DNA from: Streptomyces sp. NBC_00286
GTDB taxonomy: Bacteria; Actinomycetota; Actinomycetes; Streptomycetales; Streptomycetaceae
Assembly (NCBI RefSeq): GCF_036173125.1
Contig: NZ_CP108054.1
Coordinates: 6,663,001-6,727,000, forward strand
Length of the DNA: 64,000 nt
Direction of reading: 5' to 3'
Position numbers and translations under genes: made by a program. This document shows, in pieces, positions 1-39,875 of this stretch (the first letter of the stretch is position 1; each line of letters starts with the position of its first letter). The notes beneath the pieces were generated by a model. The model was not told the DNA's origin and made no database searches. It worked only from the letters and a program-made list of their open reading frames with translations.

Positions 1-3000
1 GTGTCCGGTCGGCCGGCTGATCTTGCGGGTGTCGAGGGCATGGTGGGTCTGTTCATCAACACGCTCCCGGTGCGCGTTCAGACGGGTGACGGTTCGGTGC
101 TGGATCTGGTGGAGCGGGTGCACCGGGATCAGGCGGAGTTGCGGCGGTTCGACTATGCGCCGTTGGCGGATGTGCAGCGGTGGAGTGATGTGGCGGCCGG
201 TGAGCCGTTGTTCGAGTCGTTGTTCGTGTTCGAGAACTATCCGCTGGGCCAGAGCGGTACGGGTTCGTCGGATGGGGTGCGGGTTGTTCCGGCGGGGGTG
301 CGGGAGCACACGAACTATCCGCTGACCGCGGTGGTCATGCCGGGTGAACGGATGGCGTTGCAGCTGTTGTTCGATCCGCGTCGGTTCGATGCCGGGGCGG
401 TCGAGTGGCTGGCGGGTGCGTATGAGCGGCTGCTGGAGCAGTTGGTGGCCGCGCCGGATGTTCCGGTCGATGAGCTGTCGGTGCTTTCTGACGATGAGCG
501 TGCTCGTCTGGTGGTGGGGTGGAACGACACGGCTGTGGAGGTTCGGCCGGGTCTGGTGCATGAGTGGGTGTCCGCTCAGCCCGGGGACGGGGTGGCGGTC
601 CGTTTCGGCGATGTCACGTTGTCGTATGGGGAGTTGGTGGCGCGGGCGGACCGGTTGGCGTGGGTGTTGCGGTCGCGTGGTGTGGGTGCGGGTTCGCTGG
701 TCGGTGTGTGTTTGCGGCGGTCGGTGGATGTGCCGGTGGTGTGGCTGGCGGTGCTGAAGGCGGGTGCGGCTTTCGTGCCGCTGGATCCGGAGTATCCGGC
801 CGGCCGGCTGCGCTTCATGCTGACGGACAGCGGCGCGCAGCTGCTGGTCACCCACGGCGAGTTGGTGGAGCGGCTTCCGGAGCATGACGCGGATGTCCTG
901 CTGGTCGACGGAGCGGACCTGGACCTGTCCGCTCCTGCCGGGCCGGTTGCCGCGGTGGAGGTGGGGTCGTCGGATGTGGCGTATGTGATTTATACGTCGG
1001 GTTCGACGGGGCGGCCGAAGGGTGTGCTGGTCGAGCACGGGGGTCTGGCGAACCTGATCGGTGCGGCGGGTGCCGACTTCAATCTGGGCCCGGATGCGCG
1101 GGTGTTGCAGTTCTCCTCGCCGAGTTTCGACGGTGCGGTGTGGGAGACGTTCATGGCGCTGGCCTGGGGTGGTGCACTGTGTCTGAGCCGGCGCGGGCAT
1201 GGGTTTGCCGCCGATGAGCTGGTGGGTCAGGTCGTGGCGGAGGGGATCTCGCATGTGATGCTGCCGCCGTCGGTGCTGTCGGTGGTCGATGAGCTGCCGG
1301 GTGTGCGGGTGGTGATCGCGGGGGGTGAGAAGTGCTCGCCGCAGCTGGCCGCAAAGTTCCCGCAGGCTCGGTTCGTCAATGCGTACGGGCCGACTGAGGG
1401 CACGGTGTGTGTGTCGGTGATGCCGGTGGACGGGCCGGTGACGGCGGTGAGTGTGCCGATCGGTCGTCCGTTGCCCAATACCCGGCTGTATGTGCTGGAC
1501 GGGCGGATGGAACCGGTTCCGGTCGGTGTCGCCGGTGAGCTGTTCGTGGGTGGTCATGGTGTGACGCGTGGCTATCTGGGCCGGCCGGGTCTGACCGCGC
1601 AACGGTTCGTGGCGGATCCGTTCGGCGGGGTGCCGGGGGGCCGGTTGTATCGGACCGGTGACCTGGTGCGCCGGCTGGCGGATGGCACGTTGGAGTACAT
1701 CGACCGCGCGGACGACCAGGTGAAACTGCGGGGCTTCCGGGTCGAGTTGGGCGAGATCGAGGCCGCCCTCACCCGCCACCCCGGTATCCGGGACGCCGCC
1801 GTCACCGTCCGCGACGGCCGGCTCGTGGCCTATCTGATCGAGTCGGCTGGGGTGGCGGACGAGGAGTTGCGTGCGGGGTTGCAGCGGACGCTGCCCGAGC
1901 ACATGGTCCCGGCGATCTATATGAGGCTCGAGGCGTTCCCCCGGACCCCGGGTGGGAAACTCGACCGCCGCGCACTCCCCGCACCTGCCGCCCCCCACGC
2001 GACGTACGTTGCGGCCCGGACCGAGACCGAGGCGGTCCTGGCCGAGGTGTGGGCCGAGGTGCTGGGTGTCGACCGGGTCGGTGTCCACGACAACTTCTTC
2101 GAGCTGGGCGGCGACTCCATCCTGTCCATCCAGGTCGTGGCGCGTGCCCGCGCGAGGGGTGTCGGCATCACCCCCAAGCTGGTGTTCGACCACCCGAACG
2201 TCGCCGACCTGGCCCTGGTCGCCGGGGTGGAGGCTGTCCAGGCGGAGCAGGGCGTCGTCACCGGTGAGGCGCCTCTTACGCCGATCCAGTCGTGGTTCTA
2301 CGGTCTGGATCTGCCGGAGCGGAACCACTTCAACCAGTCGGTCCTGCTCGATGTGACCGGCGTGGACCGGCAGGCGCTCGACACTGCCGTTCAGACCTTG
2401 CTCGCGCACCACGATGCATTGCGTCTGCGCTCGGACGGCACCCGTCAGTGGTTCGCCGAGCCTGACGGCCAGGGTCTGGAGGATGCGGACGGCCGCACCG
2501 CGGACGATGTCCAGGCGAGCCTGGATCTGGTGACCGGCCCGGTGGCGCGGTTCGTGCTCCTGTCCGGGGACCGGCTGCTGATCGCGGTCCACCACATGGC
2601 CGTGGACGGAGTGTCGTGGCGGATCCTGCTGGAGGACCTGGCCGCCGCTTGCGAAGGTGCCCCGCTGCCGGCGAAGACGACCTCGTTCAAGGAGTGGGCC
2701 ACCCGTCTGCAGACCGTCGGGGACCCCGCCGAGGACACGTACTGGAACACAATCCCGGCCGCTCCCCTGCCCGTTGATCACCCGGGCGGTGAAAACACGG
2801 TCGCCTCCGCCGAGTCGGTGGCGGTCGAGCTGGACGAGGCGGAGACGCAGGCGTTGCTGACGGAGGTGCCGGCGGCGTACCGGACGCAGATCAACGACGT
2901 GCTGCTGACCGCGCTCGCGCAGACGTTGGCCGGCTGGACCGGCCAGGAGACCGTGACCGTCGCGCTGGAGGGTCACGGCCGTGAGGAGTTGTTCGACGAC

Positions 3001-3510
3001 GTCGACGTCTCCCGCACGGTCGGCTGGTTCACCTCCCTGTTCCCGGTCCCGCTCACCCCCGCAGCGGACGGTCCGGGTGCGGCGCTGAAGGCGGTCAAGG
3101 AACAGCTCCGTGCCGTCCCGCGGCGTGGTGTCGGCTACGGCCTGACCCACGATCTGACCGCGCTGCCGGGCGGGTTGTCGTTCAACTATCTGGGCCAGTT
3201 CGACGCGGTGACCTCGGACGGTCCGCTGGGTGTGGTGGCGGAACCGGCCGGTGCGATGACGGCCGAGTCGGGTGTCCGTGCGCACCTGGTCGAGGTGAAC
3301 GGCGCGGTCTCCGGTGGGCGGTTGAGTGTCGGTTGGACGTATTCGTCGAACCTGCATGACCGTGCGACGGTCGCCGGGCTGGCCGAGGAGTTCATGACCC
3401 GGCTTCGCGCGCTGATCGAGCACTGCCTGGCCGGAAACGCCGGTGGTCTGACGCCGTCGGATGTGCCGCTGGCCGGCCTGGACCAGGGCGCTCTGGACGT
3501 GCTCGCCGAC
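1..3510 (+). other. NRPS module 1: (C)-A-T-E, specificity unclear
   Basis: Bases 1 to about 470 are the C-terminal part of a C domain with the GRP and [10 protein letters not shown] motifs. The A domain spans about 500-1970, the carrier about 2000-2220, and the E domain about 2260-3430. By manual alignment to GrsA-Phe the pocket code reads D-G-W-M-I-G-A-V-C-K. I do not recognise this exact code. The W, the A-V-C end and the overall A4-A5 sequence suggest a hydrophobic or aromatic residue, but this is tentative. The E domain motifs look intact. Confidence 0.8.
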
Positions 3511-6500
3511 CGCCAGGTCGAGGACGTGTACCCGTTGTCGCCGCTGCAGCAGGGCATGCTGTTCCACGCCCTGGCCGAACCCGACTCCGGCCTGTACGTC
3601 GAGCAGATCCACTGGCGCGTCCACGGCGAACTCGACGCCGACCGCCTCCGCCACGCCTGGCAGGCCACCGTGGACGCCCACCCCATTCTGCGCAGCTCGT
3701 TCGCATGGGAGCAGGCCGAGCGGCCGCTGCAGGTGGTCCGGGCCGACGTACGCATACCGTTCGAAATGCTCGACCTGCGAGGGGCCGAGAACCCCGAGGC
3801 CGAGGTCGACCGCCTGAACGAGGCCGACCGCCGCCGCGGGTTCGAGCTGGCGACCGCTCCGCTCGTGCGCGTCCGCGTGATGCGCACGGAGGACTCGGGT
3901 CACCATGTCCTCTGCACGTTCCATCACATCCTGCTCGACGGCTGGAGCCTGTCCTCCGTCCTCGGCGAGGTGTTCACCCGGTACGGCTCCGGCAGCGTCG
4001 GCGACGCTGCGGTGCGGCCGTACCGTGACTACATCGCCTGGCTGCAGGATCAGGACCTGCATGCCGCGGAGACGTACTGGCGGGAGAAGTTCGCCGGATT
4101 CTCCTCGGTGACCCAGCTGGGCATCGAGCGATCCGCCGCATCCGAAGGCGGGCACACCGGCCCCGGCATCTTCGGGACGACCCTGCCGACGCGTACCACC
4201 GCGGCCCTGGCCGACCTCGCACGGGCCCGCGGCCTGACCCTCAACACCCTCACCCAGGGCGTGTGGGCCCTGCTGCTGTCCAGGTACAGCCGCAGTCAGG
4301 ACGTGGTCTTCGGTGCCACGGTCTCCGGCCGACCGCCCGCGCTCGCCGGTGTGGAGAGCATGGTGGGCCTGTTCATCAACACGCTTCCCGTGCGGGTCCG
4401 TGTCGACAGCGGAACCTCCGTGGGCGAATGGCTGGAACACCTCCAGCGCGAGCAGCTCGAACTGCGCCAGTACGAATACAGTCCGCTGGCCGACGTACAG
4501 CGATGGAGCGAGATCCCGGCCGGTGAGCCGCTGTTCGAGTCGCTGTTCGTCTTCGAGAACTACCCGCTCGGCAGCGTCGAAGGCGACCCGGCGGACAACG
4601 GCCTCGACATCACCCCGCTGCCCATGACGGAGCAGACCAACTATCCGTTGACGGCCATCGTCATGCCCGGCGACGCCCTGTCGGTCCAGATGTTCTACGA
4701 CCAGGACCGATTCCACGGCGACGACATCGACCGTCTGGGCGCCGCCTACGTCGAACTGCTGGAGCAGATCGCCGCCGCGTCGCTCGAGGCACCGATCGCC
4801 GGACTGTCGCTGCTCGGCGAGGACGAGCGCCGACGGGTGCTGTGGGAGTGGAACGACACGGCCGTCGACTACCCGGGCGATCTCCTGCTGCACGAGGTGA
4901 TCGCGGAACGGGCCCGGCTCGCGGCGGACGCGACCGCAGTGGAGTTCGCGGGTGCCCGGATGTCGTACGCGGAGCTGGACGCACGGGCCAACTCGGTGGC
5001 ACACGCACTCGTCGACGCCGGTGTGGGTGCCGGGTCGCTGGTGGGCGTCTGCCTGGAACGCGGGCTCGACGTGGTGTCGGTCCTGCTGGGCGTATGGAAG
5101 GCCGGCGCCGGCTACGTTCCCCTCGACCCGGATTACCCGGCCGATCGCCTCGAGTTCATCGTGACCGACGCAGGCGTGGACGTGTTGGTGACCGCGTGCT
5201 CGCTGGTGGACCGCATGCCCGCGTTCGACGGCGTCGTCCTCCCGGTGGAGGAGATCGACGGACCGGCCTCCGCCCCGGATGTGACGGTGGCCCCCGACGA
5301 CGTGGCGTACGTGATCTACACCTCGGGCTCGACGGGCAGGCCCAAGGGCGTGGCCGTCGAACACGGGGGCCTGGTGCGGCGTGTGCTGTCCCTGCAGGAC
5401 CGGTACCCGCTGTCGGACGAGGACCGGGTCATGCAGAAGACGCCGCTGACGTTCGACGTCTCGGTACTGGATCTGTTCTGGCCCCTGGCGGCGGGCTCCG
5501 TCGTGGTGATGGCGCGCCCGGGCGGCCACGCCGACGCCGGATACCTCGCGCAGGCGGTCGCCGACGAGCGGATCACGGTGCTTCACTTCGTGCCCTCGAT
5601 GCTGGAGGCACTGCTGGACTACGGCTTCACCCCGCCGACGCGGCTGCGGCTGGTGTTCTGCATGGGCGAGGCACTGACCACCCGGCTCGTGGACCGGTTC
5701 GGCGCGGTGTCCGGCGCGGAACTCCACGACGGCTACGGTCCGACCGAGGCGACGATCGCGATGATCTTCTCGGCCTGCGAACCGGGCACACCGGGGGTGC
5801 TGGTGCCCATCGGGCGGCCGATCGCCAACACCGACATCTACATTCTCGACGACGCGATGGAGCCGGTCCCGCCGGGCGTACCGGGTGAGCTGTTCATCGG
5901 TGGAGTGGGAATCGCGCGGGGCTATGTGGGCCGCCCGGGCCTGACCGCGGAGCGTTTCGTCGCCGACCCGTTCGGCGGCGTTGCGGGAGCGCGGCTCTAC
6001 CGGACCGGTGACCTGGCCCGGTACCGGCCGGACGGAGTGATCGAGTTCCTGGGCCGGCTGGACGACCAGGTCAAGGTACGCGGGTTCCGGGTGGAGCCCG
6101 GCGAGATCGAAGCGTTCCTGGCCTCCCACCCGGCGGTCCGCGACGCGGTCGTCGTGGTCCGCAGGCAGCAGCTGGTGGCCTACCTGACGCCCGCGGGCGA
6201 CACGCTTCCCGGCGTGGCGGAGCTGCGCGAATACGCCGGACAGAGCCTGCCGGAGTACATGGTTCCGGCGGTGTTCGTCGTGCTCGAAGCCCTGCCGCTG
6301 ACTCCGAGCGGGAAGCTGGACCGCCGCGCCCTGCCCGACCCGGACACCGGGCGGCTCGGTCTGGAGACCGGCTTCGTGGCCGCGCGGACCGAGACCGAGG
6401 CGGTGCTGGCCGAGGTGTGGGCCGAGGTGCTGGGTGTCGAACGGGTCGGTGTCCACGACAACTTCTTCGAGTTGGGCGGGGATTCGATCCTGTCCATCCA

Positions 6501-9500
6501 GGTCGTGGCGCGTGCTCGCGCGAGGGGTGTGGGGATCACTCCGAAGCTGGTGTTCGACCACCCCACGGTCGCGGACCTTGCCCTGGTCGCCGGGGTGGAG
6601 GCTGTCCAGGCGGAGCAGGGCGTCGTCACCGGTGAGGCGCCTCTTACGCCGATCCAGTCGTGGTTCTACGGTCTGGATCTGCCGGAGCGGAACCACTTCA
6701 ACCAGTCGGTCCTCCTCGATGTGACCGGCGTGGACCGGCAGGCGCTCGACACTGCCGTCCGGACCCTGTTCACCCACCACGATGCGCTGCGTCTGCGCTC
6801 GGACGGCACCCGTCAGTGGTTCGCCGAGCCTGACGGCCAGGGTCTGGAGGATGCGGACGGCCGCACCGCGGACGATGTCCAGGCGAGCCTGGATCTGGTG
6901 ACCGGCCCGGTGGCGCGGTTCGTGCTCCTGTCCGGGGACCGGCTGCTGATCGCGGTCCACCACATGGCCGTGGACGGAGTGTCGTGGCGGATCCTGCTGG
7001 AGGACCTGGCCGCCGCTTGCGAAGGTGCCCCGCTGCCGGCGAAGACGACCTCGTTCAAGGAGTGGGCCACCCGTCTGCAGACCGTCGGGGACCCCGCCGA
7101 GGACACGTACTGGAACACAATCCCGGCCGCTCCCCTGCCCGTTGATCACCCGGGCGGTGAAAACACGGTCGCCTCCGCCGAGTCGGTGGCGGTCGAGCTG
7201 GACGAGGCGGAGACGCAGGCGTTGCTGACGGAGGTGCCGGCGGCGTACCGGACGCAGATCAACGACGTGCTGCTGACCGCGCTCGCGCAGACGTTGGCCG
7301 GCTGGACCGGCCAGGAGACCGTGACCGTCGCGCTGGAGGGTCACGGCCGTGAGGAGTTGTTCGACGACGTCGACGTCTCCCGCACCGTCGGCTGGTTCAC
7401 TTCTCTCTTCCCGGTCGCGCTCACCCCGGGCGCCGATGGTCCTGGTGCGTCGCTGAAGGCGGTCAAGGAACAGCTCCGCGCCGTCCCGCGTCGTGGTGTC
7501 GGCTACGGCCTGACCCACGACTTGACCGCGCTGCCGGCCGGGTTGTCGTTCAACTATCTGGGCCAGTTCGACGCGGTGACCTCGGATGGTCCGCTGGGTG
7601 TGGTGGCGGAACCGGCCGGTGCGATGACGGCCGAGTCGGGTGTGCGTGCGCATCTGGTCGAGGTGAACGGCGCGGTCTCCGGTGGGCGGTTGAGTGTCGG
7701 TTGGACGTATTCGTCGAATCTGCATGACCGTGCGACGGTGGCCGGGCTGGCGGAGGAGTTCATGACCCGGCTTCGGGCGCTGATCGAGCACTGCCTGGCC
7801 GGAAACGCCGGTGGTCTGACGCCGTCGGATGTGCCGCTGGCCGGCCTGGACCAGGGCGCTCTGGACGTGCTCGCCGACCGCCAGGTCGAGGACGTGTACC
7901 CGTTGTCGCCGCTGCAGCAGGGCATGCTGTTCCACGCGCTGGCCGAACCCGACTCGGGCCTGTACGTCGAGCAGATCCACTGGCGCGTCCACGGCGAACT
8001 CGATGGCGACCGCCTCCGCCACGCCTGGCAGGCCGTGATGGAACGGCACCCGGTGCTGCGGACGACGATCGGCACCGACACCGGCGCACCCCTGCAGTTC
8101 GTGCACCGCCGTTTCGAGGTCCCCTTCGACCTCATCGACTGGAGCGGTCTCGGCGAGGACGAGCGCGACTCCCGGATCGCCGAGCTCGTGACGGCCGACC
8201 GGCTACGCGGCTTCGCCTTCGACACCGGTCCGCTCTTCCGGATCCGTTTGGTCCGTCTCGACGCGTCGACGTATCACCTGGTGTGGAGCTTCCATCACAT
8301 CCTGCTGGACGGCTGGAGCCTCAGTACGGTGCTGCGGGACGTGTTCGCCTGGTACGAGCGGCCGAGTGCCGGCGGCGACGAGCATGTGCGGCCGTTCCGC
8401 GACTACCTCGGCTGGCTCGGCGAGCAGGACCTGGACGCGGCCGAGGAGTTCTGGCGGCGGCGACTCGCGGGCTTCGAGGAAGTCACCCCGTTCGACCCGG
8501 GTACCGCGCCCTGGCCCGACGACGGGCCCGGAAAGGGCCGCGTGGGTATGGGAGAAGTCCGCCTCCCCGCCGAGACGTTGAACGGGCTGGCCCGCCTGGC
8601 GCGTTCGCAGCGCTTGACGCTGAGCACCCTGGCTCAGGGGGCGTGGGGTCTGTTGCTGTCGCGCTACAGCGGTCGCCGGGACGTGGTGTTCGGGACGACG
8701 GTGTCGGGCCGTCCCGCGGGCCTCGACGGCGTCGAAAGCATGGTGGGCCTGTTCATCAACACGCTTCCCGTGCGGGTACAGGTGGACGACCGCGAGCCGG
8801 TCGAAGACTGGTTGCAGCGCCTCCAGGCCGAGCAGGCGGAGCTGCGGCAGTACGAGTACAGCCCGCTGGCCGACGTGCAGCGGTGGAGCGACGTCCCGGC
8901 CGGCGACCCGTTGTTCGAGACACTCTTCGTCTACGAAAACTTCCCGCTCAGCGCCGCGCCGGACGCCGTCCAACGGCAAACCCTGACCTTCGAGGTCGTG
9001 GAGTCCCGAGGGCACACCAACTACCCGCTGACGGTCGTCGCCGTCCCCGGTGACGGCATAACGGTCCACGCCTTCTACGACGAGCGGAGGTTCGACGCCG
9101 CAGCGATCGAACGCGTCCTCAACTCCTACTTCCGCCTGCTCACCGAACTGGCCTCCGCCGATGTGTCGCGCATGCCGGTGGACGAGCTGTCCGTCCTCGC
9201 ACCCCAGGACCGTCTGCAACTGCTCACCTCGTGGAACGACGCGGCTGTGGAGGTGCGTCCGGGGCTGGTTCACGAGCTGGTGGCGGAGCGGGCTCGGCTG
9301 GCTCCGGATGCGGCGGCTGTCTCCTTCGAGGGCCGGGTGTTGTCGTATGGGGAGCTGGATGCGTGGGCGAATCGGCTGGCGCGGGTGTTGCGGTCGCGTG
9401 GTGTGGGTGCGGGTTCGTTGGTGGGCGTGTGTGTGGGGCGTTCGGAGCGGTTGCCGGTGGTGCTGCTGGCGGTGTTGAAGGCGGGTGCGGGTTATGTGCC

Positions 9501-12500
9501 GCTGGATCCGGAGTATCCGGCGGATCGTCTGGCGTTCATGCTGGCCGACTCGGGTGCGGAACTGCTGCTGGTCGAGGACGAGTTCGTGGAGCGTCTGCCG
9601 GAGCTGGCCGGCTTCGGGGGCGAGGTGTTCGTCGTCGACGGTGACGCCGGGGTGGGGGCGGAGTCCGGTGCCCCGTTGGGGGTTGAGGTTGCGCCGGGTG
9701 ATGTGGCGTATGTGATCTACACGTCGGGTTCGACGGGGCGGCCGAAGGGTGTGCTGGTCGAGCACCGGAATGTGGTGAATCTGCTGGCGGGGACGCGGGA
9801 GCGGTTCGGGTTCGGGTCGGATGATGTGTGGTCGTTGTTCCACTCCTACGCCTTTGACTTCTCGGTGTGGGAGTTGTGGGGCGCGTTGGTGTCGGGTGGG
9901 CGTGTGGTGGTGGTGCCGCGTGCGCTGACTCGTTCGCCTGACAGCCTGTGGGGTCTGCTGGTGGGCGAGGGTGTGACGGTGTTGAACCAGACGCCGTCGA
10001 TGTTCGCTCAGGTGGCCCGGGCGGCGGTGCACTCGGGCCGGATGGCGTCCTCGGATCTGCGGTGGATCGTCTTCGGTGGGGAAGCGCTGGAGCTCGGACA
10101 TGTCCGGGAGTGGTTCGCCGAGGCGGGGCCGGACGGGCCCGGTCTGGTGAACATGTTCGGCATCACGGAGACGACGGTGCACGTCACGTGGGCGGACGTA
10201 CCGGACGGTGAGTCGCGGCCGTTGGTGGGCCGGGGTATTCCGAATGTGCGGGTGTATGTGCTGGACGACCGGCTGGAGCCGGTGCCGGTCGGTGTCGCGG
10301 GTGAGATCTGTGTGGGCGGCCTTGGTGTGGCCCGTGGTTATCTGGGTCGGCCGGGTCTGACCGCTGAGCGGTTCGTCGCGGACCCGTTCGGCGCGGGTGC
10401 GGGTGAGCGGTTGTACCGCTCGGGTGACCTGGGACGCTGGCATGCGGACGGGACGCTTGAGTACCTGGGCCGGGCCGACCATCAGGTGAAGGTGCGCGGT
10501 TTCCGTATCGAGCCCGGTGAGATCGAAGCCGCACTGGCCGCTCACCCGGCGATCCGCGACGCGGTGGTCGTGGTCAGGGATGACCGTCTGGTCGCCTATC
10601 TGACCCCGGCCGCGCACAACCCGGTGCCCGGCGTCGCCGAGCTGCGGGAGTTCCTCGTACGGAGCCTGCCGGAGTACATGGTTCCGGCGGTGTTCGTCGT
10701 ACTCGAGGCCCTGCCGCTGACTCCGAGCGGGAAGCTGGACCGCCGCGCCCTGCCCGACCCGGACACCGGGCGGCTCGGTCTGGAGACCGGCTTCGTTGCC
10801 GCGCGGACCGAGACCGAGGCGGTGCTGGCCGAGGTGTGGGCCGAGGTGCTGGGTGTCGACCGGGTCGGCGTCCACGACAACTTCTTCGAGCTGGGCGGCG
10901 ACTCCATCCTGTCGATCCAGGTGGTCGCCCGGGCCCGCGCCAAGGGCGTGGGGATCACTCCGAAGCTGGTGTTCGACCACCCCACGGTGGCGGATCTGGC
11001 GTCGGTTGCCGGGGTGGAGTCCGTCCAGGCGGAGCAGGGCCTCGTCACCGGCGAGGCACCCCTCACGCCCATCCAGTCGTGGTTCTACGGCCTGGACCTG
11101 CCGGAGCGGAACCACTTCAACCAGTCCGTGCTGCTCGATGTGACCGGCGTGGACCGGGAGACATTGGCCGCAGCGGTGGACACGCTGCTCACCCATCACG
11201 ACGCGCTGCGTCTGCGCTCGGACGGCACGCGTCAGTGGTTCGCCGAGCCCGACGGCCAGGGCCTGGAGGACGCGGACGGCCGCACGGCGGACGACGTCCA
11301 GGCGAGCCTGGACCTGGTGAACGGCCCGGTGGCACGGTTCGTGCTCCTGTCCCAGGACCGGCTGCTGATCGCGGTCCATCACATGGCCGTCGACGGCGTC
11401 TCCTGGCGCATCCTGCTCGAAGACCTGGTCGCCGCCTACGAGGGCGCCCCCCTGGCCCCCAAGACCACCTCCTTCAAGGAGTGGGCCGAGCGCCTCCGGC
11501 AGGCGGCCGCCCCGGCCGAGGACGCGTACTGGGACACCGTCCCGACCACTGCCCTGCCCACTGACCACCCGGGCGGCGAGAACACAGTCACATCCGCCGA
11601 GACGCTCGCGGTCGAGCTGGACGAGGACGAGACCCGAGCACTGCTGACCGAGGTGCCGGCGGCGTACCGGACGCAGATCAACGACGCTCTGCTGACCGCG
11701 CTTTCCCAAACCCTGACCGACTGGACCGGCCAGGACACCGTGACCGTCGCCCTGGAGGGCCACGGCCGCGAGGAGTTGTTCGACGACGTCGACGTCTCCC
11801 GCACGGTCGGCTGGTTCACCTCCCTGTTCCCCGTCCCGCTCACCCCCGGAGCCGACGGCCCGGGCCCGGCGCTCAAGGCGGTCAAGGAACAGCTCCGCGC
11901 CGTCCCGCGCCGCGGTGTCGGCTACAGCCTGACCCACGACCTGACCGCCCTGCCCGCCGGACTGTCCTTCAACTACCTCGGCCGAATGGACTCGGGCGGT
12001 ACTGCCGGAGGCCCCTTCGGCATGGCCGACGAGCCGATGGGCGCGCCGGCCGCCCCGACGGGGGAGCGGGCCTTCGCGATCGAGGTGAACGGCTCCGTGG
12101 CAGCCGGACGGCTGACCCTGGCATGGACCTATTCGTCCAACCTGCACGACCGCGCGACGGTCGAGGGTCTGGCCGAGGAGTTCGTCGTCCGGCTGAGGGC
12201 GCTGATCGAGCACTGCCTGACCGAGGAGGCCGGTGGCCTGACGCCGTCGGACGTGCCGCTGGCGGGTCTGGATCAGGCGGCGCTGGACCGGCTGGTGGCC
12301 GGCGACCGTCAGGTCGAGGACGTGTACCCGCTGTCGCCGCTGCAGCAGGGCATGCTGTTCCACGCGCTGGCCGAGCCCGACTCGGGCATGTACGTCGAGC
12401 AGATCCACTGGCGGCTCGACGGACCGCTCGACGCCGACAGGCTCCGGGCCGCCTGGCAGTCGGCCGTCGAGCGCCATCCCATCCTGCGTACCTCGGTGCG

Positions 12501-15500: not shown

Positions 15501-16668
15501 CCTGGCCGCAGCCGTGGAGACGCTCCTCACCCACCATGACGCATTGCGTCTGCGGTCGGACGGCTCGCGCATGTGGTTCGCCGAGCCCGACGGCCAAGGC
15601 CTGGAGGACGCGGACGGCCGCACCGCGGACGACGTTCAGGCGAGCCTGGACCTGGTGAACGGCCCGGTCGCCCGGTTCGTGCTCCTGCCCGGAAACCGGC
15701 TGCTGATCGTCGTCCACCACATGGCCGTCGACGGAGTCTCCTGGCGCATCCTGCTCGAAGACCTCGCCGCCGCCTACCAGGGTGCGCCGCTCGCGGCGAA
15801 GACCACCTCGTTCAAGGAGTGGGCGAAGCGTCTCCGGCAGGCGGCCGACCCGGCGGAGGACGCGTACTGGGACACCGTCCCGGCCACCGCCCTGCCCGTT
15901 GACCACCCCGGCGGCGAGAACACGCTGGCCTCGGCAGAGTCGCTCGCGGTCGAGCTGGACGAGGCGGAGACGCAGGCGCTGCTGACCGAGGTGCCGGCGG
16001 CCTACCGGACGCAGATCAACGACGTCCTGCTGACCGCCCTCTCCCAGACCCTGGCCGCCTGGACCGGCCAGGACACCGTGACCGTCGCCCTGGAGGGCCA
16101 CGGCCGCGAGGAGTTGTTCGACGACGTCGACGTCTCCCGCACGGTCGGCTGGTTCACCTCCCTGTTCCCCGTCGCCCTGGAACCGGGCGGGCAGGAACCC
16201 GGTCCCGCGCTCAAGTCGGTCAAGGAACAACTCCGCGCCGTCCCCCGCCGTGGCGTCGGCTACGGCCTGACCCACGACCTGACCGCGCTGCCCACCGGGC
16301 TGTCCTTCAACTACCTCGGACAGCTCGCCAGTGGCACCGCCACTGGCGACGGACCGTTCACCCCGGTGGACGAACCCGCGGGCCGGCCGGTGTCGCTTCT
16401 CGGCCACCGCGCGCACACCCTCGACGTGAACGCCGCCGTCCGCGACGGCCGGCTCAACGTCGCCTGGACGTACTCGTCGAACCTGCATGACCGCGCCACC
16501 GTCACCGGCCTCGCCGAGGACTTCATCACCCGGATGCGGGTGCTCATCGACCACTGCCTCAGTCCGGAGGCCGGAGGAGTGACCCCCTCCGACTTCCCGC
16601 TGGCAGGCCTGGAGGCAGGCGAGCTCGATTCGCTGCTCGACGCCCTCGACGACTTGGACAAGGAGTAA
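1..16668 (+). CDS. Nonribosomal peptide synthetase, four epimerizing modules (5' partial)
   Basis: This is a multimodular NRPS subunit that activates and links amino acids as carrier-bound thioesters in the cytoplasm. The frame is open from base 1 and starts in the last third of a condensation (C) domain, so the real start lies left of the window. Domain order is (C)-A-T-E, C-A-T-E, C-A-T-E, C-A-T-E. Each A domain has the [10 protein letters not shown] core, each carrier an LGGDS phosphopantetheine site (Ser706, 2162, 3635, 5081 in window numbering), each complete C domain HHxLLDGW, and each E domain [16 protein letters not shown] and RTVGWFT. The protein ends right after the fourth E domain, so the chain passes in trans to the next gene, whose AAGGAG site overlaps this stop region. 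All four residues are predicted to become D. Modules 1 and 2 share near-identical DNA. The product is unknown. Confidence 0.97.
2421..3017 (+). repeat. Near-identical intragenic repeat, copy 1 (E domain of module 1)
   Basis: By eye this stretch is base-for-base identical to 6789-7385, at a constant offset of 4368 bases (exactly one module). It covers most of the E domain. Similarity, with scattered differences, continues on both sides. Synonymous sites are identical too, which points to recent duplication or gene conversion, not selection on the protein. Confidence 0.85.
3511..7880 (+). other. NRPS module 2: C-A-T-E, unusual A-domain code
   Basis: The C domain (about 3515-4800) has the [13 protein letters not shown] start typical of domains that accept a D-configured donor, which fits the E domain before it. 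The A domain (about 4840-6340) is built like serine-activating EntF-type domains (FDVSV, HFVPSML), but the pocket reads D-V-L-H-F-M-G-I-A-K. Four or five positions depart from the serine code, so a non-proteinogenic or modified residue is plausible. The E domain is at about 6628-7800. Confidence 0.8.
6789..7385 (+). repeat. Near-identical intragenic repeat, copy 2 (E domain of module 2)
   Basis: This is the second copy of the block at 2421-3017. The first mismatch at its right end is the third base of the Thr codon in the SRTVGWFT motif. Confidence 0.85.
7881..12310 (+). other. NRPS module 3: C-A-T-E, predicted threonine
   Basis: The A domain (about 9230-10750) gives the pocket code D-F-W-N-V-G-M-V-H-K, the classic threonine code. 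It follows from [24 protein letters not shown] and [11 protein letters not shown]. With the E domain (about 11050-12230) the incorporated residue should be D-allo-threonine. The donor-side C domain (about 7890-9200) is again of the D-accepting sequence type. Confidence 0.88.
12311..16668 (+). other. NRPS module 4: C-A-T-E, predicted valine
   Basis: The A domain (about 13630-15100) gives D-A-F-W-L-G-G-T-F-K, a well-known valine code. It is read from [23 protein letters not shown] and [11 protein letters not shown]. The E domain (about 15385-16560) should give D-valine. The polypeptide stops about 35 residues after the E domain. Confidence 0.88.
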
Positions 16669-16674
16669 CCACCG

Positions 16675-19600
16675 ATGAAACAGAGTCGGGGCAACGTTGA
16701 GGACATCTACCCGATGTCTCCCCTGCAACAGGGAATGCTCTTCCACGGGCTGCTCGAATCAGGGTCGAGCATGTACTTCCAGCGGGCGCAGTGGCTGCTC
16801 GAAGGCGAGCTGGACCCGCGGGCCCTGGAACGGGCCTGGCAGGAGACCGTAGACCGCCACCCCATCCTGCGTACGGCCTTCCTGTGGGAGAAGACCAAGC
16901 AGCCGGTGCAGGTCGTCCGGGCCAAGGTGAAGGTACCGTTCACCCGGCACGATCTGGCGGGACTGTCCGGGGCCGAGCAGGAGCGGAGACTGCGGGAACT
17001 GCTGGACGCGGACCAGGCCGAGGGCTTCGACTTCGCCCGGGCCCCGCTGCTGCGGGTCACCCTCGTCCGGATGGCACCGCGGGTGCACCGGCTGATCTGG
17101 AGCTTCCACCATGTGCTCCTCGACGGCTGGAGCCTGGTCGCCGTACTCAACGAGGTGTTCGGCCGCTACGGGGACCCGGAGTTCGCGGCACGCCCGGTGC
17201 GGCCCTACCGCGAGTACATCGACTGGCTCGGGAAGCAGGACGCGTCCGCCGCCGAGCGCTTCTGGCGGACCGCTCTGGACGGATTCGAGTCGCCGACGCC
17301 GCTGACGTTCGCCCGGCCCGCAGGCCGGGCGGACAGCGACGGCGACTCCGAACCGGGAACCCACCGGGTCGCGATCGGCCGGGACGTCTCCGACGCCCTC
17401 ACCGCCCTCGCACGCTCGCGCCACCTCACCGTGAACACCATCGCCCAGGCGGCCTGGGGGCTGCTGCTCGCCCGGCACGGCGGCACCCGGGACGTCGTAT
17501 TCGGCACCACCGTGTCCGGCCGGCCGGCCGACCTGTCCGGTGTCGAGGAGATGATCGGTCTCTTCATCAACACGCTGCCCGTGCGCGTGCGGATCGGTGA
17601 CGCGGAACGTGTCGGCGCATGGCTCGACAGGCTCCAGAAGGAGCAGACGGAGCTGCGGCAGTACGAGTACAGCCAGCTCGCACAGATTCAGTCCTGGAGC
17701 GACGTCGATGCGGGAGCGCCGCTGTTCGAGACGCTCTTCGTCTTCGAGAACTACCCCGTCAGCGCCACCGCCGCCGGACCGTCGGACGGCTCCGAGGACG
17801 ACGCCCGGACCCTGCGGATGTCGGGCATCGACAACCGGGAACACACCAACTACCCGCTCTCCGTCGCGGTCGTCGTGGGCGACGGCCTCGCCCTGGACCT
17901 GTCGTACGACCGCCGGCGCATCGACGACGCGACCGTCGAACGGCTGGTCGCGCAGTACCTCCGGCTGCTGGAGCAGATACCCGGGCGGCTCGACGACCTG
18001 GTCGCCGAGCTCTCGCCCCTCACCGAGGACGAGCGGGCCGTCCTGCTGACCGGCGGGAACGAAGACGTCCTGACCGTCCCCGAGCAGATGGTGCCGGAGC
18101 AGTTCGCCCGCACGGCCCGGCGGACGCCCGACGCGGTGGCGGTCGTCGACGGCGCCCGCGAGATCTCCTACGGCGAACTGCATGCCACCACCGAGCGTCT
18201 GGCGCGTCACCTGCGCGCTCTCGGCGCCGGGCCGGGAACGCTCGTCGCGGTCGGTGCCGAGCGCTCCCTCGAGATGGTCGTCGGCCTCCTGGGGACGCTG
18301 GCGGCCGGCGCCGCGTACGTCCCGCTGGATCTGGCGTATCCCGCCGAACGCACCGAGCTGATCCTCGCCGAGACGGGCGCGCAGATCGTCCTGGCCCGGC
18401 GCGACACGTCCGGCGGCCTGCCCGCGGGGGACGCGCGCGTCGTCCTGCTCGACGCACCGGACACCTGGAGCCACGACGAGCACGCACCAGACCCGTCGGA
18501 CCTCTCGGCCGACGACCTCGCCTATGTGATCTACACGTCCGGATCGACCGGGCGGCCCAAGGGCACCCTGATCGAGCACGGCGCCCTCGCGGCCTACGTC
18601 GCCGCCGCACAGCGGCTGTACTCCATCGGCGCGGGCGACCGGGTCGTGCAGTTCTCCTCGCCCGCGTTCGACGCGAGCATTGACGAGCTCATGCCCTGTC
18701 TGACCGGAGGCGCCACCCTGGTGTTCGCGGGTGCCGCGACGCCCACCCCGCCCGACCTGCTGAAGGCCTGCGAGAACCTTTCCGCGAACGTCCTGATGCT
18801 CCCCACGGCCTACTGGCATGAGCTGGTCGCCACGGTCGAGACCGTTCCGGACGCGCTCCGCCTGATGGTCATCGGCGGCGAGCAGGCACAACCGGGCGCG
18901 GTCCGGCGCTGGTTCGAGCTGACCGAAGGCTCCGGCTGCCGGCTGCTCAATGCGTACGGCCCGACGGAGGTCACGGTCGGCTGCACGCTCGCCGAGCTGA
19001 CCGCCGCCGGGACCGCGCTGTCGCCGCACCGCGTCCCGGTCGGCCGCGCGCTGCCCAACAGCCGTGTCCACGTCCTGGACGACCGGCTGCAGCCGGTGCC
19101 GACCGGCGCACCCGGAGAGATCTGCGTGACGGGCCCCTCCCTGGCCCGCGGCTATCTGCGGCAGGCCGGACAGACGGCGAGCCGCTTCGTGGCCGACCCG
19201 TTCGCCGAGGAGCCCGGCGCCCGCCTTTACCGGACCGGAGACCTGGGACGGTATCTGCCGGACGGCACCCTCGAGGTGATCGGCCGCGTCGACAAGCAGG
19301 TCAAGCTCCGCGGCTTCCGCGTCGAGCCCGGCGAGACCGAGGCGGCCCTGGCGGCCCACCCCGAGGTGCGCGACGCGGTCGTCGACGTGATCGGAAGCGG
19401 CACGGACAAGCGGCTCGTGGGCTATGTCGTACCGCGCGGGACACCGCCCGGCCCGAGCGAGCTGAGGGCGTTCCTCCAGCGCTCGCTCCCCGACTTCATG
19501 GTGCCCTCGGCGTTCGTGGTCCTGGACGTCCTGCCGCTCACGCCGAGCGGCAAGGTCGACAGGCGCGCGCTGCCCGCGCCCGAGGGCGCACGGCCCGCCC

Positions 19601-22600
19601 TGGCCACCGCGTTCGTCGCCCCGCGCGGCCCCGTCGAGACCGCCGTCGCCGAGGTGTGGGCCGAGGTGCTGGGCCTGGACCGGGTCGGCGCGCACGACAA
19701 CTTCTTCGAGCTGGGCGGGGACTCCATCCTGTCCATCCAGGTCGTCGCCCGGCTGCGGCGGCGGGGCCTGGGGCTGTCTCCCAAGCAGCTGTTCGACCAC
19801 CCGACGATCGCCGAACTGGCCGAGGCCACCGATGCCACCGGCCTCGGGACCGTTCACGCCGAGCAGGGCACCGTGACCGGCGAGGCGCCGCTCACCCCGA
19901 TCCAGCGCTGGTTCCACGCGCAGGAACTGCCGGACCGGAACCACTACAACCAGTCGGCGCTGCTGGACGTCGAAGGCCTGGACAGGGGTGCCCTCGCCGC
20001 AGCGGTCGGGGCCTTGTTTGCCCACCACGACGCGCTGCGCCTGCGCTCCGACGGGAACCGGCAGTGGTTCGCCGAGCCGGACACGCAGGGACTGGAGGAC
20101 GCCGAGGGCCGCGACGCCGACGACGTCCAGGCGAGCCTGGACCTGGTGAACGGCCCGGTCGCCCGGTTCGTCCTGCTGTCGCCCGGCCGGCTGCTGATCG
20201 CGGTCCACCACATGGCCGTCGACGCGGTCTCCTGGCGCATCCTCCTCGAGGACCTCGGCACCGGCTACGACCAGGCCCTGGCCGGGCGCGACGTCCACCT
20301 CGGCGCGAAGACCACCTCGTTCAGGCAGTGGGCGCACCGGCTGGCGGAGCTGGCCGGAAGCGGCGAGCTGGACGACGAGGGCGCGTACTGGGAGAGCGTG
20401 CCCGTCACCGACGTACCACTGGACTTCCTGGACGGGGAGAACACGATCGACTCCGGCGGCCAGCAGACGGTCCAGCTGGACGCCGAGGAGACCCGGGCCC
20501 TGCTGACCGAGGTCCCGGCGGCCTACCGGACGCAGATCAACGACGTGCTGCTCACCGCGCTGGCGCAGACGCTGTCGAGGTGGACGGGCCAGGAGTCGCT
20601 CTCCGTCGCGCTGGAGGGCCACGGCCGCGAGGACCTCTTCGACGACGTGGACCTCTCGCGCACGGTGGGCTGGTTCACCTCGCTGTTCCCGGTCGCGCTC
20701 ACCCCGGGCGGGGACGAGCCGGGAGCCGCCCTGAAGGCCGTCAAGGAGCAGCTGCGCGCGGTGCCGCGGCGCGGCATCGGCCACGGGCTGAAGCACGCGC
20801 CCGGCGGGGTGCCCAGCGCCGTCAATTTCAACTACCTCGGGCGTATCGACACCTCGGGGACGGGCGAGGCCGCCGGCGCGCGGGGCACCGCCTTCGCCCC
20901 TCTGCCGGAGCCGGCCGGATCCAACACGGCCGCCTCCGGCCGCCGCGCCTGCGCCGTCGAGATCGACGCGGTCGTCAGCGAGGACCGGCTGAGCCTGCTG
21001 TGGACGTACTCGCGGAACCTGCACCGCCCCGAGACGATCGCCGCCGTCGCCGACGAGTTCCTCACCCGGCTGCGGGCTCTGATCCGGCACTGCACCGAGC
21101 CCGGATCGGGCGGACTGACCCCGGCCGACGTTCCACTGGCGGGCCTCGGCCAGGAGGCGCTCGACCGGCTCGTCCTCGGCGACCGCTCGATCGAGGACAT
21201 CTACCCGCTGTCCCCGCTCCAGCAGGGCATGCTCTTCCACAGCCTGGCCGACCCCACTTCGGGCGTCTACGTCGAGCAGACCCACTGGAAGCTGGACGGG
21301 CTCCTGGACCCCGGCCGCCTGCGCGCCGCGTGGCAGGCCACCCTGGACCGCCATCCGGCGCTGCGCACCTCGATCCTCTGGGAGGGAGTGGACCGCCCCC
21401 TTCAGCTCGTGCGCAGGGGAGTGCCGGTTCCGTTCTTCGAGGAGGACCTGCGGGAAGCCACCGCGATCGAGCAGGACGCCCGCGTCCAGGCCGTCAGGGA
21501 GGACGACCGCGTCCAGGGAGGGAACCTCGCCGCCCCGCCGCTGATGCGGATCCGGTTGCTGCGGACGGGCGAGACGACCCACCACCTGCTGTGGACCTTC
21601 CACCACGTCCACCTGGACGGCTGGAGCGTCAACGCGGTGCTCGGCGAGGTGTTCGGCCGCTACTACGCGCCCGGCCCGTTCCCGGAACGTCCGGTGCGCC
21701 CCTACCGCGACTACATCGCATGGCAGGGCGAACAGGACCACGCCGCGGCGGAGTCGTTCTGGCGCGCCAAGCTCCAAGGGGACGACCCCGCCACCTGGTT
21801 CGGCATCGCCCAGGCCGACGAGGACCCGGACGAGGAAACACCCGCCGCACAGCCCGGCCACTGGCAGACCGCCCTCCCCTCCGAGCTGACGGCCGCGCTG
21901 TCCCGCCTGGCACGGGCACAGCGCCTCACGCCGAGCACCGTGCTCCAAGGCGCCTGGGCCCTGCTCCTGGCGCGGTTCAGCGGCAAGGACGACGTGGCCT
22001 TCGGCACCACGGTCTCGGGCCGCCCCGCGGACCTCGCCGGCGTCGAGGACATGGTCGGCATGTTCATCAACACCCTGCCGGTCCGGGTCCGCATCGACGA
22101 CTCCGAGCCGGTCCGGTCCTGGCTCCGGCGGCTCCAGGGGGAACAGGCCGAACTGCGGCAGTACGAGTACAGCGCGCTGGCCGACCTGCAGCGGTGGAGC
22201 GACGCCCCCGCCGGAGAACCCCTCTTCGAGACGCTCTTCGTGTATGAGAACTTCCCCCTCGGAGCGGCGCCGGAGTCCGACCGGACCCAGGAGCTCGCCG
22301 TCACCTCCATGAAGACCGCGGAGCACACCAACTACCCGCTGTCGATGGTCGTGGTCCCCGGCGACGGCATCGGACTGCACGCCTTCCACGACGTCGGGCG
22401 GATCGACACCGCGACGGTCCAGCGGCTCGCCGAGGCATACCTGCGCCTGCTGGACGGCATCGCTCGTTCCGACGAGTCGACGCTGGTGGCCGATCTCTCC
22501 CCGCTGGACGACGCCGAGCACCGTGCGCTGCTTGCCGGGCGCGGCGGGGCGACTCCCGAGCTGCCGGATGTGCCGGTGCATGCTCTGGTCGCCGAGCAGG

Positions 22601-25600
22601 CGCGGCTGCGGCCGGACGCGGTGGCGGTGGAGTACGACGGCGTCGCGCTCACCTACGGCGAGCTGGACGTGCGCGCCAACCGGCTGGCGGGTGAACTGCG
22701 GGCGCGCGGTGTGGACGTGGGCTCCCCCGTCGTGGTCTGCCTGCGGCGGTCGGTGGAGCTGCCGGTGGCGTTGCTGGCCGTGTGGAAGGCCGGTGCGGCG
22801 TACGTGCCGCTGGACCCGGACTACCCGGCCGACCGGCTGGCGTTCATGCTCGACGACTCGGGTGCGACGGCGGTGGTGACGGAGCGGTCGTGCCTGGAGC
22901 GACTGCCCGCTGTGGCCGCCGAGGTGGCCGTGGTGGTGCTGGACGACGAGGCGGACCGCGCGTCCGTCGAGGCCCGTCCGGTGACGGACCCCGAGTCCGG
23001 CGCGGGGCCCGGCGACTTGGCGTATGTGGTGTACACGTCGGGCTCCACGGGCCGGCCCAAGGGCGTGGGAGTCGAACACGCGTCGATCGTCCGACTGGTG
23101 TGGGACGCCGACTATGTGCAGCTCGGCCCGGACGCGGTGGTCGCCCAGGCCGCGGACACGTCGTTCGACGCGCTGACGTTCGAGCTGTGGGGTCCGCTGG
23201 CCACCGGTGGCCGGGTGGTGGGCCTGTCCCGTGAGGTTCTGCTGTCCCCCGGGGACCTGGTGGCGGAGCTGCGTGCCCGGGGTGTGACGACCCTGTTCGT
23301 GACGACGGCCCTGTTCAACCAGGTCGTGGCCGTCGATCCGTCGGCGTTCGGATCCCTGGACAGTCTTCTGTTCGGCGGTGAGGCGGTGGACGCCGGCCGG
23401 GTGGCCGAGGTGCTGGCGGCCGAGTCCCCTGCGCGGCTGGTTCATGTCTACGGCCCGACGGAGGCGACGACGTTCGCGTCGTGGCACGAGGTGACGGACG
23501 TGGAAGGCCGGACGGTGCCGATCGGCCGCCCGATCGTCCATACGGAGTTGCTGGTCCTCGACGCCCGGCAGCGGCTGGTCCCGGTGGGTGTGACCGGTGA
23601 GTTGTACGTGGGCGGGCCCGGTCTCGCGCGGGGCTATCTGGGACGTGCCGGTCTGACCGCCGAGCGGTTCGTGGCGCATCCGTACGCGACCGAACCGGGG
23701 GCTCGTCTCTACCGGACCGGTGATCTGGTGCGCCAGTTGCCGGACGGGGCGATCCAGTTCGTGGGCCGCAGCGACCACCAGGTGAAGCTGCGCGGCTTCC
23801 GGATCGAGCTGGGTGAGATCGAGGCCGCGTTGAGGGCGCACTCCGCGGTGCGTGACGCGGTCGTGGTCGTGACCGGTGAGGGGCGTGAGCGCCGTCTGGC
23901 GGCCTATGTCACCTTCGCCGGGGGCGAGTCGCCGGAGCACGCCGAACTGCGGGCGGCCCTGATGCGGTCGCTGCCGGAGTACATGGTTCCGGCGGTGTTC
24001 GTGGTGCTGGAGCACCTGCCGCTGACCCCGAGTGGAAAGCTCGACCGCCGTGCGCTTCCTGCCCCCGAAGCCGTACAGGCCGAGTATGCGGCGGCGCGGA
24101 CCGACACCGAGGCGATCCTCGCCGAGGTGTGGGCCGAGGCGCTGGGCGTCGAACGGGTCGGCATCCACGACAACTTCTTCGAGCTGGGCGGCGACTCCAT
24201 CCTGTCCATCCAGGTGGTCGCGCGTGCCCGAGCCAGGGGTGTGGGGATCACGCCGAAGCTGGTGTTCGACCACCCCACGGTCGCGGACCTGGCGTCGGTT
24301 GCGGGGGTGGAGTCCGTCCGGGCCGAACAGGGCGTCATCACCGGCGAGGCACCCCTCACGCCCATCCAGTCGTGGTTCTACGGGCTGGACCTGCCGGAGC
24401 GGAACCACTTCAACCAGTCGGTGCTGCTCGATGTGACCGGCGTGGAGCGTGCCGCCCTCGACGCGGCCGTCCGGACGCTGATCACCCACCACGACGCGTT
24501 GCGCCTGCACTCGGACGGCTCGCGCCAGTGGTTCGCCGAGCCCGACGGCCAGGGGCTGGAGGACGCGGACGGCCGCACGGCCGACGATGTCCAGGCGAGC
24601 CTTGATCTGGTGAACGGCCCGGTGGCACGGTTCGTGCGTCTGTCCGAGGACCGGCTGCTGATCGCCATTCACCACATGGCCGTGGACGGAGTGTCGTGGC
24701 GGATCCTCCTGGAGGACCTTGCCGCCGCCTACGAGGGCGCCCCCCTGGCCCCCAAGACCACCTCCTTCAAGGAGTGGGCCGAGCGCCTCCGACAGGCGGC
24801 CGACCCGGCCGAGGACGCCTACTGGGACACCGTCCCCGCCACTGCCCTGCCCGTTGACCATCCCGGCGGCGAGAACACCGTCGCCTCTGCCGAGTCGGTG
24901 GCCGTCGGGCTGGACGAGGCCGAGACCCGAGCACTGCTGACCGAGGTGCCGGCGGCGTACCGGACGCAGATCAACGACGCTCTGCTGACCGCGCTCTCCC
25001 AGACCCTGACCGGCTGGACCGGGCAGGACACCGTGACCGTCGCCCTGGAGGGCCACGGCCGTGAGGAGTTGTTCGACGACGTCGACGTCTCCCGCACGGT
25101 CGGCTGGTTCACCTCCCTGTTCCCCGTCGCCCTCACCCCGGGTGGCGAAGCTCCGGGTTCGGCGCTGAAGGCGGTCAAGGAACAGCTGCGCGCAGTCCCG
25201 CGCCGCGGTGTCGGCTACGGCCTGACCCACGACCTGACCGCCCTGCCCGCCGGAGTGTCCTTCAACTACCTCGGACAACTGGACTCGCTCTCCTCCAGCG
25301 GCCCGTTCGGCGCGGTCGCCGAGCCCGCCGGGGCCGTGGCCGCCGGGACGGGGCGTCGCGCGCACCTCATCGATGTCAGCGGTGCGGTCGACGACGGCCG
25401 GCTGACCATCGACTGGACCTACTCCGCGAACCTGCACGACCGCGCGACCGTCACCGCACTGGCCGAGGAGTTCGTCTCCCGGCTCCGGGCGCTGGTCGAG
25501 CACTGCCTGACCCCGGACGTCGGCGGACTGACGCCGTCCGACGTGCCGCTGGCCGGCCTCGACCAGCACACCCTGGACGCGCTCGCCGACCGCTCGGTCG

Positions 25601-35807: not shown

Positions 35808-35999
35808 ATGAGCACCAGGAACGACGTCGACACCCGCACCTACACCGTTCTCCGCAACGAGAAGGGCGAACACTCCCTCTGGCTGGAGAACAAGGAGGTT
35901 CCGCTCGGCTGGGAGCGTCTCGACTTCACCGGAACCGTCGAGGAGTGCTCCGCCTACGTCGACAAGGTCTGGTATGTCGGCCCGAAGCGGAAGGGCTGA
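35808..35999 (+). CDS. MbtH-like NRPS accessory protein, divergent
   Basis: MbtH-like proteins bind NRPS adenylation domains and help them fold or work. This one has 63 residues, the usual size. It keeps the core NEKGEHSLW, P-x-GW and the glycine turn. It departs from the family at three points: Glu where the N-x-E-x-Q Gln is expected, Leu instead of Pro after SLW, and WYVGPKRK instead of the C-terminal W-T-D-x-R-P. The ATG at 35808 is chosen because GAGGAG sits just before it and the family begins here; a longer frame overlapping the NRPS stop exists. It lies between the last NRPS gene and the hydroxylase, as expected for the pathway. Confidence 0.9.
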   Translation: MSTRNDVDTRTYTVLRNEKGEHSLWLENKEVPLGWERLDFTGTVEECSAYVDKVWYVGPKRKG

Positions 36000-36000
36000 C

Positions 36001-37071: not shown

Positions 37072-37099
37072 CGAACGAGGGATAGGTGAGGGGAACAGG

Positions 37100-39813: not shown

Positions 39814-39846
39814 CGCCGCCTCCTCCCCCTCGGGCGTCAACCACGT

Positions 39847-39868
39847 TTGACACCCGAGGGGGTGTCAA
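39847..39868. repeat. Inverted repeat overlapping the promoter (probable operator)
   Basis: TTGACACCC and GGGTGTCAA form perfect nine-base arms around a four-base centre. The left arm includes the -35 box and the right arm fills the spacer. A repressor here would block the promoter. The small HTH protein encoded just downstream is the obvious candidate. A hairpin ending the upstream operon is an alternative, but no T tract follows. Confidence 0.65.
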
Positions 39869-39875
39869 CTAAAGT
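39847..39875 (+). promoter_or_regulatory. Near-consensus promoter giving a leaderless transcript
   Basis: TTGACA (39847-39852), a 17-base spacer and TAAAGT (39870-39875) form a strong housekeeping-type promoter, rare at this quality in such GC-rich DNA. Seven bases after the -10 box lies the A of the ATG at 39883. The transcript should therefore begin at the start codon, and no ribosome binding site is seen. Confidence 0.72.

Follow-up and report, generated by a model that had tools for sequence, protein, structure and literature searches.

Fourteen epimerization domains in a 20-module nonribosomal peptide synthetase of Streptomyces sp. NBC_00286 point to a D-rich peptide product

A 64,000-nucleotide stretch of the Streptomyces sp. 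NBC_00286 genome (contig NZ_CP108054.1, positions 6663001-6727000 of the forward strand; hereafter the window) contains part of a nonribosomal peptide synthetase (NRPS) cluster that is cut by its left edge. Once completed with upstream DNA, this cluster is best explained as a collinear assembly line of 20 modules, 14 of which carry an epimerization (E) domain, that would build a D-rich peptide of 20 residues. We assign this reading a probability of roughly 0.8. Domain order, motifs, the subtypes of the condensation (C) and carrier (T) domains and the selection on nine of the E domains are read directly from the DNA, and the residue configurations given below are predicted from them.

The genome is a single contig of 9.85 Mb. 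Joining 80 kb of upstream DNA (6590001-6670000) to the window completed the cluster, which consists of three consecutive NRPS frames: S1 (6617648-6642841), S2 (6642742-6679668) and S3 (6679669-6698766; genome coordinates). From stop to stop, these frames span 8397, 12308 and 6365 residues respectively. Motif scans and profile calls agreed on the order of the domains. S1 opens with adenylation (A), methyltransferase (MT) and T domains (A-MT-T, module 1), and continues with five modules of the order C-A-T-E (CATE, modules 2-6). S2 is composed of a CAT module (7), a CATE module (8), a second CAT module (9) and six CATE modules (10-15), while S3 holds two CATE modules (16 and 17), three CAT modules (18-20) and a thioesterase (TE) domain. 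With 20 A, 20 T and 19 C domains and one TE, the system is a modular (type I) NRPS. The MT domain of module 1 matches Methyltransf_12 (E 5.8e-19) in a Pfam scan that covered module 1, modules 19 (from its A domain) to 20, the genes at 35808-41297 of the window and three upstream genes.

E domains reside in modules 2-6, 8 and 10-17 (14/20), and the longest run is eight (modules 10-17). A preliminary description of the window had reported six consecutive E modules followed by three modules that lack the domain, and had expected more modules upstream. The six modules it numbered 1-6 correspond to 12-17 in the full line of 20, lie at the end of S2 and the start of S3, and are preceded by 11 further modules. 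The six are indeed consecutive, but the run is longer than stated because the two modules immediately before them, 10 and 11, have E domains as well. The domain map agrees that the last three modules, here 18-20, have none.

The E domains show the features of functional enzymes. The motifs HHMAVD[GA]VSW, EGHGRE and RTVGWFT are intact in each of the six E domains within the window, as had been noted earlier across the two subunits, and all three are likewise intact in the full set of 14, with HHLAVDGVSW as a variant in module 2. TIGR01720, which models the tail of the E domain, matches all 14, including the six in the window; the only other match among 15 in the genome lies in another NRPS frame. 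We also compared aligned codons with the orthologous cluster of Streptomyces malachitofuscus, whose available pieces comprise all of S3 and parts of S1 and S2 and include nine of the 14 E domains, the other five being missing from these pieces. The ratio of non-synonymous to synonymous substitution rates (dN/dS) is 0.19 for E, 0.18 for A, 0.17 for C and 0.11 for T domains, and 0.27 for linkers. These values indicate that the nine compared E domains are under purifying selection, like the rest of the assembly line. Nevertheless, the run could be partly decorative, with some E domains inactive and fewer D residues made than predicted, as has precedents among glycopeptide NRPSs (PMC1894796). Although the selection comparison leaves room for this by covering nine of 14 domains, the intact motifs of all 14, the equality of the nine E domains with A and C domains in dN/dS, and the matching D-type C domains downstream make such partial inactivity quite improbable.

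These C domains were classified with profiles derived from 491 C domains that follow E domains and 339 that follow T domains in 198 related NRPS proteins. Each class was represented by randomly drawn sequences, up to 150 for the C and 200 for the T profiles. In held-out checks, the C profiles (three of five folds) correctly assigned 283/283 after-E and 200/212 after-T domains, and the T profiles 333/333 and 195/199. Every C domain that follows an E module is of the D-accepting type (14/14), including two located across subunit breaks (modules 7 and 16). As expected, L-type C domains are found in modules 2, 8, 10 and 20, which account for four of the five that follow modules without E. The T domains conform to the same pattern, as all 14 that precede an E domain are E-type and those of modules 1, 7, 9, 19 and 20 are not. 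Because all 14 C domains after E modules are D-accepting, the D8 stretch predicted from the intact E domains and D-type C domains is well supported. The D6-L3 segment originally proposed therefore needs revision: consecutive D residues are upheld by intact E domains, D-type C domains and selection on the nine E domains compared, but eight rather than six are predicted, and L3 is doubtful at module 18, where an E-type T is followed by a D-accepting C domain.

Several points weigh against the assembly of a D-rich 20-mer as proposed. The C domain of module 19 departs from the rule for C types that the other four domains after E-less modules obey. In glycopeptide NRPSs, C domains of the D type that follow once-active E domains can show L activity (PMC1894796), and idle E/C domains have been reported in Pseudomonas (PMC10531924); intact E and C signatures do not always lead to a D residue. 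In addition, five of the A-domain codes listed below (those of modules 6/7/12, 9/19, 10/13, 16 and 18) gave no match in a literature search.

The exception at module 19 deserves separate consideration. Despite the lack of E in module 18, the C domain of module 19 scores as D-accepting (517 versus 325 bits, +192), and the carrier domain of module 18 is E-type by 13.8 bits in its subtype profile. Hence both neighbours of the missing E domain keep its signature. No E remnant was found between the T domain of module 18 and the C domain of module 19, which are separated by a short linker only. The absence of E is common to Streptomyces parvus and S. malachitofuscus, and the junction region is 94% identical in S. 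parvus. The same kind of E-less junction recurs at 16 of the 339 after-T junctions in the 198 proteins, always with an E-type T domain. A second set of 98 proteins, chosen for their similarity to the module 18/19 junction, shows it at 149 of 506 after-T junctions, of which 121 have an E-type and 28 another T domain. Many of these recurrences occur in a Streptomyces group of proteins of about 7.2-7.5 thousand residues with methyltransferase domains (among P0236-P0297).

Candidate sources of a D residue at this position were examined. A dual E/C domain at module 19 was rejected as its N-terminal HH..GD stretch is missing, and this motif is absent from all 19 C domains, judged by a pattern that had no positive control in the set. 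TIGR01720 reveals no stand-alone E domain for module 18 in the genome, and no racemase is present among the Pfam-scanned cluster genes. Ala_racemase_N, the one racemase family searched, is represented by seven genes elsewhere in the genome, the nearest being about 520 kb away.

Residue 18 could have either configuration, with D slightly favoured. We consider it an even chance that module 18 yields D through the E domain of a neighbouring module, a D amino acid supplied by a racemase, or a C domain whose epimerising activity is not recognized from its sequence. In that event, the run would be nine and the D content 15/20. The E-type carrier, the D-accepting C domain downstream, the absence of E shared with both relatives and the recurrence of the junction in other proteins all argue for this outcome. 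A precedent is kistamicin module 4, which has no E domain and a residue taken as D, which its authors explain by a supposed, not yet identified dual C/E domain (PMC6565677). The searches for a dual domain, a stand-alone E domain and a racemase argue in the opposite direction within the scopes just given, as do the 28 of 149 junctions with a non-E-type T domain, by which the signature is not uniform. Moreover, a D-type C sequence can accompany L activity in glycopeptide synthetases (PMC1894796). This last precedent, together with the short linker devoid of any E remnant, speaks for the alternative that E has been lost, that the C domain of module 19 now takes an L donor, and that the peptide ends in L3. 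Its chances appear somewhat short of even: the C domain of module 19 shows no shift towards the L-type profile, and S. parvus shares 94% identity over the junction, a measure of sequence and not of T or C type in the relatives.

The ten-residue codes of the A domains were extracted with a reference fragment. They are DALWLGGTFK (modules 1 and 20), DAFFLGVTFK (2, 3 and 17), DFWNVGMVHK (4 and 14), DAFWLGGTFK (5, 11 and 15), DGWMIGAVCK (6, 7 and 12), DVFWLGGTFK (8), DLQQLGVADK (9 and 19), DVLHFMGIAK (10 and 13), DADMVGAVGK (16) and DAQDWGMVDK (18). We take the DxxWLGGTFK codes to specify Val and DGWMIGAVCK to specify an aromatic residue. When six of the codes were used in a literature search, DAFFLGVTFK alone was matched, in two papers. 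This code is found at Ile/Val positions of cyanopeptolin, and DFWNIGMVHK, which is one letter off the code of modules 4 and 14, at its Thr position (PMC2533009, Table 1).

In the proposed mechanism, the synthetase would be read collinearly from S1 through S2 to S3. Chain assembly would begin at module 1 with an N-methylated amino acid, probably N-methyl-valine, rather than with a fatty acid. The E domains of modules 2-6, 8 and 10-17 would each epimerise the newest residue of the peptide on the carrier, of which the following D-accepting C domain would transfer the D form only. Modules 1, 7, 9, 19 and 20 would leave L residues, and module 18, flanked by domains with E-type features, would have lost its E domain or work without one. 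The TE domain would then release a linear acid or a lactone on a Thr. Configurations would follow the order L D5 L D L D8 (18?) L L, with D at about 70% of positions; the residues are probably mostly Val, Ile and Thr, together with a probably aromatic one and several whose codes are unassigned. The helix formation and protease resistance suggested in the preliminary description would depend on the structure of the peptide, which the TE domain may also cyclise. A neighbouring oxygenase would 3-hydroxylate an Arg-like residue, and an ABC transporter would export the product, which might be a membrane-active antibiotic.

To place the E run in context, we surveyed other genomes and determined runs by hand from the match coordinates, joining matches on one strand that start less than 6 kb from the next. 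The first survey applied TIGR01720 to 100 other Streptomyces genomes. In the 16 with at least eight matches, all listed in full, the longest runs are six (G093), five to six (G036, including one weak match) and five (G014 and G049), followed by four in G069 and at most three in the remaining 11. Ten genomes with seven matches were listed in part, such that runs of eight are excluded there and runs of six or seven are possible. A second survey of 393 other genomes of the class (Actinomycetes) scored nine candidates per genome, which makes its counts floors, and was followed up in the 12 richest genomes, with 7-9 matches (those with at most six were left out); their E runs do not exceed three. 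The two surveys overlap in some genomes, and draft contig ends can break runs. Among homologous proteins, a biased sample of the 298 best from lists of 844, 942 and 764 scored, the maximum is five E domains in five modules (P0002 and P0003).

The order of the E domains is not surprising in itself, because random shuffles of 14 E domains among 20 modules give a run of at least eight in 17% of cases, or 24% when module 1 is held E-less (14/19 positions). At the background rate of 551 E domains in 1030 modules, taken from the 198 related large NRPS proteins, which were drawn by similarity to E modules, such a run has a probability of 0.044. The unusual part is E density, not E order, and the machinery is of a known NRPS kind, otherwise ordinary but unusually rich in E domains. 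The earlier statement that most known nonribosomal peptides alternate or scatter D residues proves too strong, as D residues make up 14/19 of fuscopeptin A, 16/22 of syringopeptin 22 and 13/19 of jessenipeptin (PMC10628113), and runs of 5-6 E domains occur in other Streptomyces. Among 69 rows of a table of bacterial compounds in that paper, the first two of these and burkholdac A (3/4) have the highest D fractions, and the Streptomyces rows reach at most 50%.

Close homologues of the cluster occur in S. malachitofuscus and S. parvus. S. malachitofuscus JCM 4493 carries the same cluster in pieces over several contigs, with an oxygenase 99% identical and 11 of 12 complete A codes unchanged; the one that differs, in module 8, is DAFWLGGTFK there and DVFWLGGTFK here, and the code of module 19 is cut by the end of the stretch. 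S. parvus protein P0001 matches S3 (93% over residues 1-2900, five of five codes identical), and a second S. parvus protein, P0050, shares its layout and codes with the start of S1. Among the oxygenase matches listed at E 1e-60 for 294 other Streptomyces genomes, none exceeds 48% identity. Within the cluster, C-domain identities are 83% for C5/C11, 86% for C6/C12, 75% for C8/C10 and 73% for C5/C15, and the closeness of these pairs suggests that the E run grew by copying of CATE blocks. It is improbable that the cluster has already been characterised with a known product, since no matching cluster or product was among the papers listed by a literature search on codes, species and features.

Table 1. 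Annotated features of the window (positions in the window).
Feature	Positions	Strand	Basis
C-terminal part of NRPS subunit S2: module 12 from the end of its C domain, then modules 13-15 (each CATE); gene start ~20.2 kb upstream of window	1..16668	+	Open reading frame, domain calls
E domain, module 12	2263..3501	+	PF00668, TIGR01720, motifs
C domain, module 13, D-accepting type	3517..4836	+	Domain call, C-subtype profile
E domain, module 13	6631..7869	+	Domain call, motifs, TIGR01720
C domain, module 14, D-accepting type	7885..9222	+	Domain call, C-subtype profile
E domain, module 14	11050..12294	+	Domain call, motifs, TIGR01720
C domain, module 15, D-accepting type	12313..13626	+	Domain call, C-subtype profile
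E domain, module 15	15388..16635	+	Domain call, motifs, TIGR01720
NRPS subunit S3: modules 16-20 (CATE-CATE-CAT-CAT-CAT-TE)	16675..35766	+	Open reading frame, motifs, Pfam, profile calls
C domain, module 16, D-accepting type, across subunit break	16696..18048	+	Domain call, C-subtype profile
E domain, module 16	19879..21171	+	Domain call, motifs, TIGR01720
C domain, module 17, D-accepting type	21193..22533	+	Domain call, C-subtype profile
E domain, module 17, last of run of eight	24343..25584	+	Domain call, motifs, TIGR01720
C domain, module 18, D-accepting type	25597..26943	+	Domain call, C-subtype profile
E-less junction: module 18 E-type carrier (LGGDS from 28582), then module 19 D-accepting C (PF00668 28804-30138)	28582..30138	+	Motifs, C/T subtype profiles
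C domain, module 20, L-accepting type	31918..33234	+	Domain call, C-subtype profile
Thioesterase domain, release or cyclisation	35095..35748	+	PF00975 E=5.6e-22
MbtH-like protein	35808..35999	+	PF03621 E=8e-15
Fe(II)/2-oxoglutarate oxygenase, kin of arginine/enduracididine 3-hydroxylases (CmnC, VioC, GntD)	35974..37071	+	Sequence comparison, family models
ABC exporter, putative product export	37100..39004	+	PF00664/PF00005
Alpha/beta hydrolase; could be second release or self-protection enzyme	39001..39813	+	PF00561

The oxygenase encoded downstream of S3 aligns with CmnC (265 bits) and VioC (247 bits), including the HTEDAF and VDADF stretches, which we take to hold the Fe ligands and the acidic guanidinium-binding pair. 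It scores 333.2 on the VioC model TIGR03946, below the cut-off of 418.6, and 389.9 on the model of GntD, the L-enduracididine 3-hydroxylase, above the cut-off of 345. From these similarities, the oxygenase product is likely a 3-hydroxy Arg-like residue in the peptide. The Pfam-scanned genes include none recognised as belonging to an enduracididine or capreomycidine pathway. Near 93 relatives of the oxygenase (37 loci with A domains, 56 domains), the best match to the code of module 18 is DAEDMGLVDK at locus L060, with 7/10 letters. Upstream of S1 are genes for a histidine kinase and a LuxR-type response regulator (L010:4300-6122), which are possible regulators, and an IS630-type transposase gene (L010:6394-7134) lies between this two-component system and S1.

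Several known systems share individual characteristics with the cluster. Linear gramicidin is distinguished by alternating D and L residues and an N-terminal formylation domain, whereas this cluster has D5 and D8 blocks and S1 starts with an A domain. An NRPS from a Micrococcales metagenome-assembled genome (P0033, 5339 residues) carries DADMVGSVGK, DVLHFMGIAK, DLQQLGVADK and DALWLGGTFK followed by TE, corresponding in order to module kinds 16, 10/13, 9/19 and 20. It has no equivalent of module 18, and the module before its DLQQ module keeps its E domain. Consecutive CATE runs are also found in type V-like glycopeptide synthetases (complestatin/corbomycin kind), with 5-6 in G014, G036, G049 and G093. 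The module codes at these four loci are presumably of the Hpg/Bht type and the loci, which we take to be of the glycopeptide class, look like glycopeptide lines, whereas none of the 20 codes of the present cluster is of the Hpg/Bht/Dpg type. Stendomycin synthetase is likewise a Streptomyces NRPS with a product tag containing Val, Thr and Ile (PMC4154637). Its product is built from a heptapeptide chain and a heptadepsipeptide ring (PMC4282715) and, unlike that of our cluster, has 14 residues and an N-terminal fatty acid.

The closest parallel in product is provided by the Pseudomonas peptins (syringopeptin, fuscopeptin and jessenipeptin) and tolaasin, which are long (18-25 residues) and very D-rich. 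The peptins reach 68-74% D by a mechanism other than separate E domains, and tolaasin B has 10/18 D residues (PMC10628113). Pseudomonas lipopeptide NRPSs of the non-Mycin families are described as having dual C/E domains with no separate E, an acylating starter C domain and a tandem TE (PMC9948697). In contrast, this cluster has 14 separate E domains and one TE, and S1 begins with A-MT-T in place of an acylating starter C domain. A more specific proposal, which we rate as rather unlikely, is that the product is the first actinomycete peptide to attain peptin-like D content (14-15/20) with dedicated E domains, being an N-methyl-capped 20-mer with a D8/D9 left-handed membrane-active helix and a residue 18 epimerised without its own E domain. 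If the predicted pattern holds, the cluster would offer a possible protease-resistant antibiotic lead and, in a single assembly line, 14 E/C pairs for the study of stereochemical gating, while the module 18 junction, E-typed yet lacking E, would serve as a test of genome-based D/L prediction where E is missing. A Streptomyces would then make a long peptide with a D content like that of the Pseudomonas peptins by a different enzymatic route.

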